A stretch of DNA of 64,000 bases. Origin: Methanorbis furvi (lineage in GTDB: Archaea > Halobacteriota > Methanomicrobia > Methanomicrobiales > Methanocorpusculaceae). The DNA is taken from the NCBI RefSeq assembly GCF_032714615.1, contig NZ_JAWDKA010000007.1, positions 1-64,000 on the forward strand, given 5' to 3'. The position numbers and the translations under genes were made by a program. The notes beneath the pieces were generated by a model, which was given only the letters and a program-made list of their open reading frames with translations, searched no databases and was not told where the DNA came from. Each line of letters begins with the position of its first letter. The stretch's first letter is position 1. Positions 1-27,494 of this stretch are shown one piece after another.

Positions 1-113
1 GATGGGGACACGATTGCCGGCAGAGGTCGGGCGGCGAAGCCGCCTCAGACCGAGCATGACGCGAAAGCGGCATGCGAGACAATTCTACTCCCGTTCAAAT
101 CGGGAACTTGGCT
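1..113 (+). ncRNA. tRNA-Cys-like RNA with 54-nt insertion (5' truncated by window)
   Basis: This is the first of four tandem tRNA-Cys units; its acceptor 5' strand lies before the window. It differs from the next copy (164-289) at one base (position 6) over the shared 113 nt. A T arm (TCCCG, TTCAAAT, CGGGA), the acceptor 3' strand ACTTGGC and discriminator T are present. Between the anticodon region CGGCAGA and the 3' anticodon strand lies a 54-nt insertion that folds into two hairpins. It could be a functional structured RNA, an intron-bearing tRNA, or a duplicated tRNA invaded by a palindromic element. Confidence 0.6.
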
Positions 114-163
114 TTTCCTGAGAAATCAGGATACCAATGAATTAAACAAACAAAAAATAACAT

Positions 164-289
164 GCCAAGTTGGTGAGATGGAGACACGATTGCCGGCAGA
201 GGTCGGGCGGCGAAGCCGCCTCAGACCGAGCATGACGCGAAAGCGGCATGCGAGACAATTCTACTCCCGTTCAAATCGGGAACTTGGCT
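164..289 (+). ncRNA. tRNA-Cys-like RNA with 54-nt two-hairpin insertion (complete copy)
   Basis: The 7-bp acceptor stem (GCCAAGT with ACTTGGC) and discriminator T are identical to the normal tRNA-Cys genes at 340 and 463. The D arm (GTG/CAC with GG in the loop) and a 5-bp T arm are intact. The anticodon loop reads CGGCAGA instead of CTGCAGA, so GCA is kept but the universal U33 is G. Positions 201-254 are inserted. They fold into a GGTC/GACC stem capped by GGCGGC-GAA-GCCGCC (206-220) and a GCATG/CATGC stem with CGC-GAAA-GCG inside (230-251). The remaining anticodon stem is ATTG/CAAT with a C-A mismatch at 31-39. I could not find a good bulge-helix-bulge splice motif, so removal as an intron is not supported. 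Confidence 0.65.
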
Positions 290-339
290 TTTCCTGAGAA
301 ATCGGGATACCAATGAATTAAACAAACAAAAAATAACAT

Positions 340-411
340 GCCAAGTTGGCGGAGTGGCCACGCAATTGCCTGCAGAGCAATTTTACGCCTGTTCAAATCA
401 GGCACTTGGCT
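340..411 (+). tRNA. tRNA-Cys(GCA), copy 1
   Basis: The 72-nt cloverleaf is complete: acceptor GCCAAGT/ACTTGGC (7 bp), D stem GCG/CGC, anticodon stem ATTGC/GCAAT with loop CTGCAGA (anticodon GCA), 5-nt variable loop, T stem GCCTG/CAGGC with loop TTCAAAT, and discriminator T73 as expected for cysteine tRNA. CCA is not encoded. A downstream hairpin (CCTGA-GAAA-TCAGG) follows each unit. The gene lies upstream of SepCysS, the enzyme acting on its Sep-charged form. Confidence 0.95.
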
Positions 412-462
412 TTTCCTGAGAAATCAGGATACCAAATGAATCAAACAAACAAAAAATTACAT

Positions 463-534
463 GCCAAGTTGGCGGAGTGGCCACGCAATTGCCTGCAGAG
501 CAATTTTACGCCTGTTCAAATCAGGCACTTGGCT
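463..534 (+). tRNA. tRNA-Cys(GCA), copy 2
   Basis: This is identical in the cloverleaf to the copy at 340 and lies 123 nt further on. The spacer between copies is AT-rich and itself repeated (CCTGA-GAAA-TCAGG hairpin, then a run rich in AAACAAAC). Two identical tRNA-Cys genes in tandem are unusual for a compact archaeal genome and suggest recent tandem duplication. Confidence 0.95.
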
Positions 535-663
535 TTTCCTGAGAAATCAGGATACAGAAAAAATTCCAAGCACCAGACCACTCCCGAAAAACACGGGAAA
601 ATCGAAACCAGCCGCACTGTATCCATGCGGGATAGCAAATGAACCGGATATGCACCTGATACT

Positions 664-843
664 ATGTCACAAAGAGCTATTGATGCGGTGTTCACCGGTC
701 TGTATCAGCTGACCGACATCCGTGCCGTTCTTCGCAGAACCGCACCCCTGCATCAGCTGAACGATTCGGAGAAAGAAAGTACGAAGAAAGCGATCGAACA
801 GGTTCGAAAACAGCTCATCATTCTTGAGGAGGAGCTGTTATGA
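664..843 (+). CDS. 59-aa helical protein coupled to SepCysS (possible mini SepCysE-like partner)
   Basis: This short ORF ends in TGA overlapping the SepCysS start codon (ATGA, 840-843), so translation is probably coupled. The product begins MSQRAIDAVFTGLYQLTDIR and ends in a charged amphipathic helix (about residues 35-59: KESTKKAIEQ then a Glu-rich tail). There is no signal peptide or membrane segment. In class I methanogens a bridging protein, SepCysE, links SepRS and SepCysS. A small helical protein translationally coupled to SepCysS could play a comparable docking role, but that is inference from position and helical character, not from recognised homology. No Shine-Dalgarno sequence is evident, so it may be leaderless. 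Confidence 0.6.
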   Translation: MSQRAIDAVFTGLYQLTDIRAVLRRTAPLHQLNDSEKESTKKAIEQVRKQLIILEEELL

Positions 844-2024
844 CCGTCCGATGCGCAGCAGGAATTGAAACGCGAACCGTTGAAGAGGGATCGATTAACT
901 TAGACCCCATTCAGGCGGCAGGACGGCTTACCCCTGAAGCAATGAAGGCCGTTATTGCCTGGGGCGACGGCTACTCGGTCTGCGACCACTGCCACAAACC
1001 ATTCCGTTTAGACTATGTCACCAACCCGCCGATCGCAGACTTTCACACCGATCTCGCCCAGTGGCTCGGCATGGACAAATCCCAAGTGGTGCCGGGCGCA
1101 CGCCGTGCGTTTCAGGAGGTAACCGGAGCGCTCGTCGGCAAAGGCGAGCCGGTGATGATGACCGGTATGGGCCACTACACCGCATACCTCTCGGTCGAGG
1201 TGGTGAACGGTGTCGTCCGCGAAATTCCGCAGACACCGGATCATCACATCACCGCAGACACCGCCGCCGAACGAATCGAGGCAGCGGTCAGAGAGTTCGG
1301 ATACGCGCCCAAGCTGCTCTTCATTGATGCGGTGGACTTCATGTATGGAAATATGCATGATGTGAAGGGCGTTGCAAAGGTTGCGCACCAGTACGATATC
1401 CCGGTACTCTACAATGGTGTCTACACGGTAGGCGTTCTGCCGGTGAACGGCAGAGAGCTTGGCGTTGACTTTGTGGTCGGGTCCGGCCACAAGAGTATGG
1501 CAGCCCCTGCGCCGTCGGGTGTTCTTGCAACAACCGATGAGTACGCTGATGTTGTTCTGCGGACGACGAAGATCTCAGGCGACGTGACCGGCAGAAAATT
1601 CGGCATTAAGCAGGTGGGCATCCTCGGCTGCTCGCTGATGGGTGCGCCGATCGTGGGACTGATTGCGTCGTTTCCGGCGGTGAAGGAGCGGGTGAACCAC
1701 TGGGATGAGGAGCTGGCGAACCATAAGATTGTGATCGATGCATTACAGTCAATCGAAGGGACGAAGGTGGCTTCCGAGTTCCCGCGCCGTCATACGCTGA
1801 CGAGAATGGACACGGCTGGATCGTTTGATGTGGTTGCCCGCACGCATAAGAAACGCGGATTTTTCCTCTCAAGTGCTCTTGCAAAGCGTGGTATCACCGG
1901 TATTATGCCCGGGGTTACGAAGCAGTGGAAATTCAATACGTATGGTCTCACACGGGAACAGGCAGAGTATCTGGCTGATTCCTTTGTGGATATTGCAGAA
2001 GAGAACGGCCTGCGGGTTGGATAA
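840..2024 (+). CDS. pscS: O-phospho-L-seryl-tRNA:Cys-tRNA synthase (SepCysS)
   Basis: This PLP enzyme (394 aa) converts phosphoseryl-tRNA(Cys), made by SepRS, into Cys-tRNA(Cys) in the cytoplasm. It is the tRNA-dependent route to cysteine in methanogens and Archaeoglobus. The fold-type I core is clear: the Schiff-base lysine is K218 in GSGHKSMAAP, and the three cysteines typical of the family are seen at C48, C51 (SVCDHCHKPF) and about C264 (ILGCSLMG). Length is normal. The gene overlaps the upstream 59-codon ORF by 4 nt and lies about 300 nt downstream of two tRNA-Cys genes, so substrate tRNA and enzyme share one locus. The SepRS gene is not in the window. Confidence 0.93.
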   Translation: MTVRCAAGIETRTVEEGSINLDPIQAAGRLTPEAMKAVIAWGDGYSVCDHCHKPFRLDYVTNPPIADFHTDLAQWLGMDKSQVVPGARRAFQEVTGALVGKGEPVMMTGMGHYTAYLSVEVVNGVVREIPQTPDHHITADTAAERIEAAVREFGYAPKLLFIDAVDFMYGNMHDVKGVAKVAHQYDIPVLYNGVYTVGVLPVNGRELGVDFVVGSGHKSMAAPAPSGVLATTDEYADVVLRTTKISGDVTGRKFGIKQVGILGCSLMGAPIVGLIASFPAVKERVNHWDEELANHKIVIDALQSIEGTKVASEFPRRHTLTRMDTAGSFDVVARTHKKRGFFLSSALAKRGITGIMPGVTKQWKFNTYGLTREQAEYLADSFVDIAEENGLRVG

Positions 2025-2065
2025 ACCCTTGGACTATTTTTTTGTATGTGGTTTTGCTTGAGCCT

Positions 2066-3067: not shown

Positions 3068-3127
3068 TGTGATAATAATTGGCGCTGAATACCTATGTGG
3101 GTTGTGTTTGAGCGGTTGTGTGATCTT

Positions 3128-3397
3128 GAAACGCGAATAACGCGAATAGAACGCCTCCGGCCAAACGCGAATGGCGCGAATAGCGCGAATAGCATGCCTT
3201 CGGCCTGCTCACCGCTTTGCACGCCGTTCCGTCGTGCTCACTGCTTCGCAACTTCACGGAATAAAAAATTGCCAAAGGCGATTTTTAGAGGAAAAAAAGA
3301 CTTGGTATTTTATTTTAGATAGAAGCATCCAAAGAAACAAAAAAAATTGAAAAAAATCGCCATTGGCGATTTTTCATTCGCGTTATTCGCGTTTGAC
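3128..3397. repeat. Intergenic palindromic element, family B (copy B1)
   Basis: The left end (3129-3147) AAACGCGAATAACGCGAAT is exactly inverted at the right end (3376-3394). Just inside lie small palindromes of the type AAATCGCCATTGGCGATTT, and the left half holds the GC-rich module starting GCATGCCTTCGGCCTGCTCA. The right end overlaps the last codons of the dihydropteroate-synthase-like gene, giving its terminal KRE-stop. Other family B copies: 5561-5860, 11031-11256, 15311-15517, 22634-22690 (half) and 45755-45995. Confidence 0.88.
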
Positions 3398-5494: not shown

Positions 5495-5560
5495 ATCCCT
5501 CATATTTGTTACAGAATCATATAACCATCGCGGTCGCTATGAGGTTTGTTGAGGTATGTC

Positions 5561-5860
5561 GATCAAAAAACGCGAATCGCATGTCTTTGGTCAAATGCGA
5601 ATTGCATGCCATCGATCAAACGCGAATCGCATGCCTGCGGCCTGCTCACCGCTTTGCACGCCGTTCCGTCGTGCTCACTGCTTCGCAGCTTCGCGGAATA
5701 GCGCGAATAGCACGAATAAAAAATCACCAATGGCGATTTTTCAAAAAAAAATAATCTTGATTTTTTCCAAACGAAGAGATTTATCTAAAAAATACATTTA
5801 GTAATATCTCAAAAATCGCCATTGGCGATTTTTTATTCGCGTTATTCGCGTTTTTGACCA
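5561..5860. repeat. Intergenic palindromic element, family B (copy B2)
   Basis: The left half has words AACGCGAATCGCATG and CAAATGCGAATTGCATG, then the GC-rich module (about 5630-5695). The right end is ATTCGCGTTATTCGCGTTT, preceded by the palindrome AAATCGCCATTGGCGATTT (about 5812-5832). A second small copy, AAATCACCAATGGCGATTT, lies near 5722-5740. The right end runs into the flavoprotein gene ending at 5842 and encodes its last codons. Confidence 0.88.
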
Positions 5861-10376: not shown

Positions 10377-10956
10377 GATTCTGTCTCTCCAAATAAAGGT
10401 CCGGCAGCTGATCAGAGATCCGCTTGAGGGCATAGGCAGCTGACGGGTGGTCGGCGGAAAATGTTTTGAGGAACGCGGCGATGTCAGAGCAAAACGCGGA
10501 GCTGTCCTGCGTGGAACAGTCGCCGGTCCATCCGTGATGGCGGGCATAGAAGCAGACCTCGGTTCGCGGCACAACCGATAACGGACGAAGGGTTTTCTTT
10601 TCCGGTACCGCCAGAAGTTCGGCGGCGTCTCCACGGCATACCTGACAAAGAAGGTGTTCGGCGATGTCGTCAAGCGTGTCTGCGGTCACGACGGCGGTTG
10701 CAGATGCAACGTCGGTGGTAAACGTAACGTCGCGCCTGCCTGCAAGGATCACCGACAGCAGAGTTGAGAGGGCATGCGACTCGGCACTGCTTCCCCCCAT
10801 GATAAACAGTTTTTCGCCTGAGGCGATGCCGCCGCATTTGCGGACTTCACGTTTTGCTTTTGCTTCGATGTCGGCTGCGGCGTGGCGGGAACAGAGGGCA
10901 ACGCCTGCGTAATCCTGCACAATCACTGCATCGTTTCCGCACCGCGAGCATTTCAT
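10366..10956 (-). CDS. Degenerate PP-loop / zinc-ribbon protein related to tRNA thiolases
   Basis: The N-terminus MKCSRCGNDAVIVQDYAGVA then LCSRH has the CxxC...CxxH zinc motif that starts archaeal TtcA/Ncs6-type tRNA sulfurtransferases. The next segment (KREVRKCGGIASGEKLFIMG then GSSAESHAL) aligns with their PP-loop region, but the ATP-binding SGGKDS motif has become GGSSAES. The protein is short (196 aa) and lacks the usual catalytic CxxC. It may bind rather than modify tRNA, or act with nadE, which it overlaps by 11 nt. Family assignment is from motif memory, so moderate. Confidence 0.65.
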   Translation of the reverse strand: MKCSRCGNDAVIVQDYAGVALCSRHAAADIEAKAKREVRKCGGIASGEKLFIMGGSSAESHALSTLLSVILAGRRDVTFTTDVASATAVVTADTLDDIAEHLLCQVCRGDAAELLAVPEKKTLRPLSVVPRTEVCFYARHHGWTGDCSTQDSSAFCSDIAAFLKTFSADHPSAAYALKRISDQLPDLYLERQNHAV

Positions 10957-11030
10957 AGTACATCAATAGTTGGCGTTCGTCTGATATGTAGATTGCACTG
11001 GTTTGTGGCGAGTGGAGCACAACAAAAAGG

Positions 11031-11256
11031 AAAACGCGAATGGCGCGAATAGCGCGAATAAATAAATCGTAGCGTCATTTAAGTTTGGAGCGAACACTGA
11101 TTTCAAAAAATGAAATATATTTCTTCTTTGAAAAATCGCCATTGGCGATTTTTTATTCGCGTTATTCGCGCCATTCCGCGAAGCTGCGAAGCAGTGAGCA
11201 CGACGGAACGGCGTGCAAAGCGGTGAGCAGGCCGCAGGCATGCGATTCGCGTTTCA
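11031..11256. repeat. Intergenic palindromic element, family B (copy B3, inverted)
   Basis: The left end has AAAACGCGAATGGCGCGAAT and the right end ATTCGCGTTTC. An internal AAATCGCCATTGGCGATTTT palindrome lies at about 11132-11152. The GC-rich module lies on the opposite strand relative to B1/B2 (11170-11242, ending GCAGGCCGCAGGCATGCG). The element fills the gap between the zinc-ribbon gene and rio2. Confidence 0.87.
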
Positions 11257-11326
11257 AAATCTCATCCCACCCACACATCACGGATCATCATGATACTTTT
11301 ATCCCTACAAAGTCAATCAATACCTA

Positions 11327-26452: not shown

Positions 26453-26572
26453 TTTTTTTCTGTTGTGGACGTACGCATCAGCCCACGGAACACACAGAAC
26501 ACACGGAAATTTCACAGAAAATGTACTCTCACAAAAAGATTTAGTAGATTTTTTTCTGAAAAAAGGAAATGG

Positions 26573-27040
26573 ATAAGTGGCGAATGGGCATGATGAGAAA
26601 AGGAAACCGCAAATCCACGCAAATCTCGCTCGCTGATGCTCGCTCCGCAAATCGCATTTGCGAACCGTCGCTCTCATCCCGCCGGATTCCGGCGGGCTCG
26701 TTGCTATCGCAACCGCGACTGCAAATGCTGGGCGGCGCCAGTCGGGCGCCGCCATGGGTTGAATGGATTGCATTCGAAGTGTAGGACAATCTGAAAATTT
26801 TCGACCCCACGACATTTTACGCAGTGACACACCATGAATATTATCGATAAACAATAGGCGGCGCCTGACTGGCGCCGTCCAGCGTTTGCCGTCGCGTTTG
26901 CGATAGCAACGAGCCCGCCGGAATCCGGCGGGATGAGAGCGACGAAAAGCAAACGCGATTTGCGGAGCGAGCGTTAGCGAGCGAGATTTGCGTGGATTTG
27001 CGGTTCCTTTTTCAAGCGAAACCACGCTCACCACTTACCC
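26573..27040. repeat. Large palindromic element, family C
   Basis: The left arm (about 26575-26754) and right arm (about 26853-27037) are inverted copies of each other. They hold words such as AACCGCAAATCCACGCAAAT, CCCGCCGGATTCCGGCGGG and GGCGGCGCC. A central loop of about 100 nt separates them. No ORF of note is inside. The ends (TAAGTGG..., ACCACTTACC) resemble those of the element at 41599-42129, so families C and D are related. Confidence 0.85.
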
Positions 27041-27087
27041 TCTTACTTTTCCCAGAAAAAATCGACTAAATCTTTTCGTGGTATCAC

Positions 27088-27484
27088 AAAATTTCACAGA
27101 AAAAAACATCACGGAGCAGACGTGAACATCACGGAAATATTTTTTCTAAATTGAAATTCCATTATGATGCCACAAAAAATTTCGTTGGTTTGCTTCAGGA
27201 AATTTTTCAAAAAAAATAATTGCAGAAAATATTTTCGTGATGCCGCATCAAAATATTTCATCACAAAATCTCAGAAAAAAAACCGTTGGTTTGCTCTTGA
27301 AAATTTTTCAAAAAATAATTGCAAAAAATATTTTTCGTGATGCCGCATGAAAATATTTCATCGCGAGATTTCTGAAAAAAAAACACCACGGAAATATTGT
27401 TTAAATTTATACTTCCGTGCAGTTCACATCTGCTCCGTGATGTTTTTCAGTGATATTTCCGTGTTTTCCGTTTTTCCGTGGGCG
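27088..27484. repeat. Split family A element (A3) interrupted by AT-rich direct repeats
   Basis: A left family A arm (AAAAACATCACGGAGCAGAC, about 27103-27143) and a right arm (TTCACATCTGCTCCGTGATG, ending TTCCGTGGGCGG at about 27484) are separated by some 230 nt. Within the gap a unit starting GTTGGTTTGCT is repeated at 27184 and 27295 (111-bp period), each copy holding AATATTT and GTGATGCCGCAT words. The element looks like a family A palindrome opened by tandem duplication of foreign or slipped sequence. Confidence 0.75.
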
Positions 27485-27494
27485 GCAAAAAAAA

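Follow-up and report, generated by a model that had tools for sequence, protein, structure and literature searches.

The tRNA-Cys Array

The window analysed here, 64,000 nucleotides of contig C7 from G000, an archaeal genome of 1.85 Mb, starts inside a derivative of tRNA-Cys that carries an insert. This unit, ins1, occupies positions 1–113 on the + strand (bases 14–126 of 126, the first 13 bases lying on contig C13) and is followed by a complete 126-nt unit of the same kind, ins2, at 164–289 (+). Two normal tRNA-Cys(GCA) genes come next, at 340–411 and 463–534 (both +). Downstream are a 59-aa open reading frame (664–843, +) and SepCysS (pscS), the tRNA-linked paralog, at 840–2024 (+). An earlier note on this DNA had described two tandem tRNA-Cys-like units of 126 nt, 54 nt longer than normal, beside normal tRNA-Cys and SepCysS, and all of these were located. 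The note had the two copies differing at one base. The full-length G000 copies differ at two, the second outside the window.

A further normal tRNA-Cys is found on contig C13 (C13:24246-24317), and C13 ends in the same 30 bases with which the window begins. The order of the five-unit array depends on the C13–C7 join, which this 30-nt overlap supports; it is likely to be tRNA-Cys (C13), ins1, ins2, tRNA-Cys, tRNA-Cys, the 59-aa ORF and SepCysS. In a sister species of the genus (G019), whose SepCysS is 98% identical, the arrangement tRNA-Cys, tRNA-Cys, ins1, ins2, small ORF, SepCysS lies on one unbroken contig. Since the ins1-ins2 pair is intact there, it is not an assembly error of a single genome. 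Elsewhere in the genus, G023 has three normal tRNA-Cys copies arrayed before SepCysS (L044 979-1252), and more copies are present at L005 145-216 and L009 1501-1572, adjoining what was judged by eye to be 5S rRNA.

Operon and Candidate Promoter

A tRNA-Cys lies just before SepCysS in 14 of the 14 genus genomes fetched that have the tRNA-linked paralog. Each has a TATA-like box before tRNA-Cys, with TTCACNNNGTGAA about 20 nt further on. Twin exact TTCACNNNGTGAA sites are present in G000, G019, G008, G001 and G004, and one exact site with one near-match in G013, G020, G012, G015, G003, G017 and G014; G016 and G023 have degenerate versions only. The motif occurs seven times in the G000 genome (reversed control, one), three of these at the tRNA-Cys/SepCysS locus. 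Upstream of the array the candidate operator spans C13:24209-24235; it is often in tandem one base apart, and it occupies the same place in genus loci L033-L044. A MetY-like gene, its family assigned from the G019 protein, is divergent from the operon in G000, G019, G008 and G004.

Between the array start and pscS, neither G000 nor G019 has a T run of at least five or a TATA box, and a T7–T8 run follows pscS in both species. In the window this is the T7 run at 2037–2043 (+), the first terminator-like T run past the array. These features make a single transcript from the array through pscS likely. Across the genus, tRNA-Cys and SepCysS appear to be under one candidate regulated promoter, and the cysteine-making operon that holds the insert units is probably regulated.

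The 59-aa ORF is conserved and overlaps the start of SepCysS. Its position, size and conservation fit SepCysSn; searches of Pfam, NCBIfam and PDB gave no match, and the PDB profile no link to SepCysE. It is therefore named a candidate SepCysSn by position and size only.

Fold and Identity of the Insert-Bearing Units

Each insert unit has 54 nt in excess of a normal tRNA-Cys, at 26–79 in ins1 and 202–255 in ins2 (both +), so that the junction reads GCAGAG-(54 nt)-CAATT compared with GCAGAGCAATT in the normal gene. As the earlier note had proposed, the insert folds into two hairpins, and none of 200 shuffled sequences was as stable. In ins2, hairpin 1 has a GAA loop (201–227, +) and hairpin 2 a GAAA loop (230–251, +; 54–75 in ins1).

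A covariance-model check had been suggested for these units. When ARAGORN and the Rfam tRNA model were applied, the normal genes were found and the insert units were not recognised; the window stretch did not appear even at E up to 1. T33 is absent from all four insert copies of the two species. The change of U33 to G described earlier is correct for the G000 copies, but one G019 copy has A. The D arm is changed in 4/4 copies and differs much from that of the normal gene, contrary to the claim that it was kept exactly; the D stem is broken in three copies and complete in G000_ins2 only. GCA-G and T73 are present as described, and the acceptor arm equals that of the normal copies. The T arm does not match that of the genes at 340 and 463 (GCCTG/CAGGC), but it equals that of the normal tRNA on C13 (TCCCG/CGGGA).

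In place of the D and anticodon arms, unit positions 8–32 (171–195 in ins2, +) are predicted to form a single 5′ hairpin. Units folded with this hairpin are computed to be more stable, by 6 to 20 kcal/mol in 4/4 copies, than the same units with D and anticodon arms, as in a cloverleaf. G019_ins2 differs from ins1 by five substitutions in this region (12, 13, 14, 15 and 32), every one of which keeps or improves the hairpin, and its loop becomes GAGA. Two of the five also match the normal tRNA, and these may have come from gene conversion. With four sequences only, the observed pair counts are not decisive; they were reached by 29/500 shuffles for the hairpin model and 36/500 for the cloverleaf. 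Each of the four copies can still pair ATTG with CAAT, the letters of the anticodon stem, and therefore a cloverleaf remnant is possible.

According to published work, SepRS identifies its tRNA by the GCA anticodon, m1G37 and U73 (PMC8762117). The insert units have these letters, but in the predicted fold they have no anticodon loop, and normal charging is thus not expected. They are probably no longer ordinary decoding tRNAs.

The retention of every cysteine identity base had been taken to favour function. The acceptor and T arms of the insert units are identical to those of normal copies, and in G019_ins1 the T-arm variant has switched as a block. Homogenisation by gene conversion could explain both observations, so the argument from identity bases loses most of its weight; the D arm and position 33, moreover, are changed.

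Distribution and Conservation

Of 33 family genomes, only G000 and G019 carry the insert. The search of relatives for the insert near pscS, advised in the earlier note, thus succeeded in G019 and found it absent from the other 31. Family-wide patterns for tRNA-Cys units, which assume the acceptor letters GCCARGTTGG, gave longer units in G000 and G019 only, and none of intermediate length. When the GTDB genome collection and viral contigs, from which near relatives may be missing, were scanned for exact patterns, there was no match, and no report of such insert-bearing tRNAs was recognised in the open-access literature.

Both ins2 copies have A19 and both ins1 copies G19. This sharing suggests that the ins1-ins2 pair predates the separation of G000 and G019. 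Between the two species the insert differs at 1 of 54 nt. Fourfold-site divergence between the two species averages 30.5% over 26 genes and is 13.4% in pscS; the binomial probability of so little change in the insert is 0.004 at the pscS rate and 7e-8 at the mean fourfold rate. Aligned intergenic DNA has diverged by 15%, and 185 of 5,679 overlapping 54-column intergenic windows (3.3%) are conserved as well as the insert. Of these, 94 lie immediately 3′ of pscS, and slow evolution of the entire locus is therefore possible. Taken together, these comparisons provide moderate evidence that the insert is under constraint.

Relation to Palindromic Repeats

Hairpin 2 has the form GAGCATGACGCG-NN-AGCGGCATGCGA. 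It recurs at G000 C8:75106, with a loop one base shorter, at G000 C9:3459 and at G019 C3:146160. These sites are intergenic, inside strings of small hairpins, and the recurring modules fold like hairpin 2, down to the A.G mismatch in the stem. Searches of the 23 remaining genus genomes did not find the module. For the core of hairpin 1, GTCGGGCG..CCGCCT, the counterpart is GTCGGGCGCCGCCT, which occurs in three intergenic palindromes of G000 and three of G019; this likeness spans only 14 bases. By pattern search, the means by which the palindromic repeats were sampled, the same palindromes are thus found at several intergenic sites, as in a dispersed repeat: three further sites for hairpin 2, and six for the hairpin-1 core.

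Outside the insert units, no occurrence of the exact 54 nt was found, and the match to a donor is at the level of the modules. There is no clear target-site duplication; the junction GCAGAG/...GCGAGA/CAATT gives at most an ambiguous GAG repeat. The likeliest origin of the insert is the entry of a REP-like palindrome into one copy of the array before G000 and G019 diverged. The earlier note had listed among its options that a palindromic module had invaded a tRNA duplicate, and it is this option that the hairpin modules in the intergenic repeats of both genomes support.

Many strings of intergenic palindromic repeats, e.g., AAAAATCGCCATTGGCGATTTTT and GAGCACGACGGAACGGCGTGC, are present in the window at 3068-3383, 5504-5841, 10548-11326 and 26453-27494, and they differ greatly in length between G000 and G019. 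The region 3′ of SepCysS (2025-2298) contains long palindromes; its aligned part is 98% identical in the two species, above most other intergenic DNA.

History and Fate of the Insert Units

We think it somewhat probable that the insert units descend from a palindrome-invaded, tandemly duplicated tRNA-Cys copy, and that they now yield a transcribed and processed string of hairpins that is not expected to decode. On this account a REP-like repeat of the lineage would have landed in the anticodon arm of one tRNA-Cys copy, at unit positions 38/39, before the two species separated, and the invaded copy would then have been duplicated in tandem. Each unit would probably be transcribed with the operon from the TATA and twin-site promoter. 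RNase P and RNase Z would probably excise it, thanks to its intact acceptor-T half. The product would be a closed string of hairpins of roughly 126 nt, made up of the 5′ hairpin, insert hairpins 1 and 2, and the T arm, from which no decoding of cysteine codons is expected. Several observations count against this explanation: no exact 54-nt donor was found, the likeness of hairpin 1 is limited to 14 bases, there is no clear target-site duplication, and an insert that was simply carried along would be expected to change more between species than this one has.

The same origin may have led to a different fate for the RNA. The units could be decaying pseudogenes, maintained by recombination within the array, and either untranscribed or degraded at once. 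The loss of T33, the damaged D stem and unit ends identical to those of normal copies agree with this, as does the expansion of tandem arrays elsewhere, in G023 with its three normal copies. The insert, however, has hardly changed between species, and the order of the pair is conserved; we regard decay as a credible but unlikely outcome. The units may instead have been co-opted by the cysteine operon for regulation, as a tRNA-like RNA whose acceptor-T arm (with U73) and GCAG linker, exposed between hairpins, bind a protein that handles tRNA-Cys, such as SepRS, SepCysS or a modification enzyme, or tune the processing of the pscS transcript. Both copies have been retained in two species, as a pair that the A19/G19 pattern suggests is older than their split. 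The low rate of change in the insert relative to fourfold sites and to most intergenic DNA, and the five hairpin-preserving substitutions in G019_ins2, are in keeping with such a function, as is the position of the units, downstream of a candidate regulated promoter and upstream of SepCysS. Yet only two species have them, half of the intergenic windows that match the insert in conservation lie immediately 3′ of pscS in a locus that may be slow overall, and hairpin 1 has one pair fewer in G019. In addition, GCA is no longer inside an anticodon loop, and the pair counts from four sequences were matched by 29 of 500 shuffles. Co-option of this kind is rather improbable on present evidence.

An unusual intron was also considered earlier, in which the 54 nt are removed from a precursor to give a working tRNA-Cys. 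The insert does lie in the anticodon arm near the usual site of archaeal introns, and its removal restores the GCAAT 3′ strand. The earlier note could build no bulge-helix-bulge, and enumeration likewise found no 3-nt bulge, 4-bp helix and 3-nt bulge with flanking helices in the registers covered. A spliced product would carry G33 or A33 in place of T, together with a damaged D stem in three of the four copies, and the array also contains normal copies. Splicing to a functional tRNA is thus very improbable.

The palindrome-invaded, processed hairpin string remains the preferred explanation, and any present role would be secondary to the insertion. The retention of the insert units in both species makes such a secondary role possible. 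A more speculative extension, which we hold to be doubtful, is that a selfish palindrome was captured by a tRNA-Cys gene, which thereby became the source of a new hairpin RNA with tRNA ends; this RNA, since retained, would sense or sequester part of the tRNA-dependent cysteine machinery in its own operon.

Comparison with Known Systems

The association of tRNA-Cys, SepCysSn and SepCysS has been published (Mukai et al., 2017; PMC5424206). In the passages of that paper that describe these operons, as here, a small ORF and SepCysS follow directly after tRNA-Cys, and some genomes have a MetY-like sulfur-metabolism gene next to them. The G000 array differs in having five units, two of them with inserts, and insert-bearing tRNAs are not mentioned in those passages. 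Unlike this operon linkage, the TTCACNNNGTGAA sites are an observation of the present analysis, and the candidate regulated promoter that tRNA-Cys and SepCysS appear to share across the genus makes the control of tRNA-dependent cysteine synthesis testable.

Archaeal tRNA introns resemble the insert in their position in the anticodon arm; the difference is that no bulge-helix-bulge was found and that T33 is lost in the insert units. Rickettsia palindromic elements (RPE) are also palindromic repeats inserted within genes and carried in the gene sequence (PMC6649704). The likeness concerns the mode of insertion. Proteins encoded by genes with an RPE are reported to stay active, whereas in the insert units the fold of the host tRNA appears to be lost. 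On a small scale, the locus illustrates how a repeat may enter a tRNA gene. One genome contains the uninterrupted gene as well as the invaded copies and repeat modules akin to the insert, and the sister species shows what followed. REP and other short palindromic intergenic repeats have similar short GC-rich stems between genes, and one hairpin of the insert is common to repeats of the same genomes. In contrast to these repeats, the insert lies within a tRNA gene, where G000 and G019 have both conserved it.
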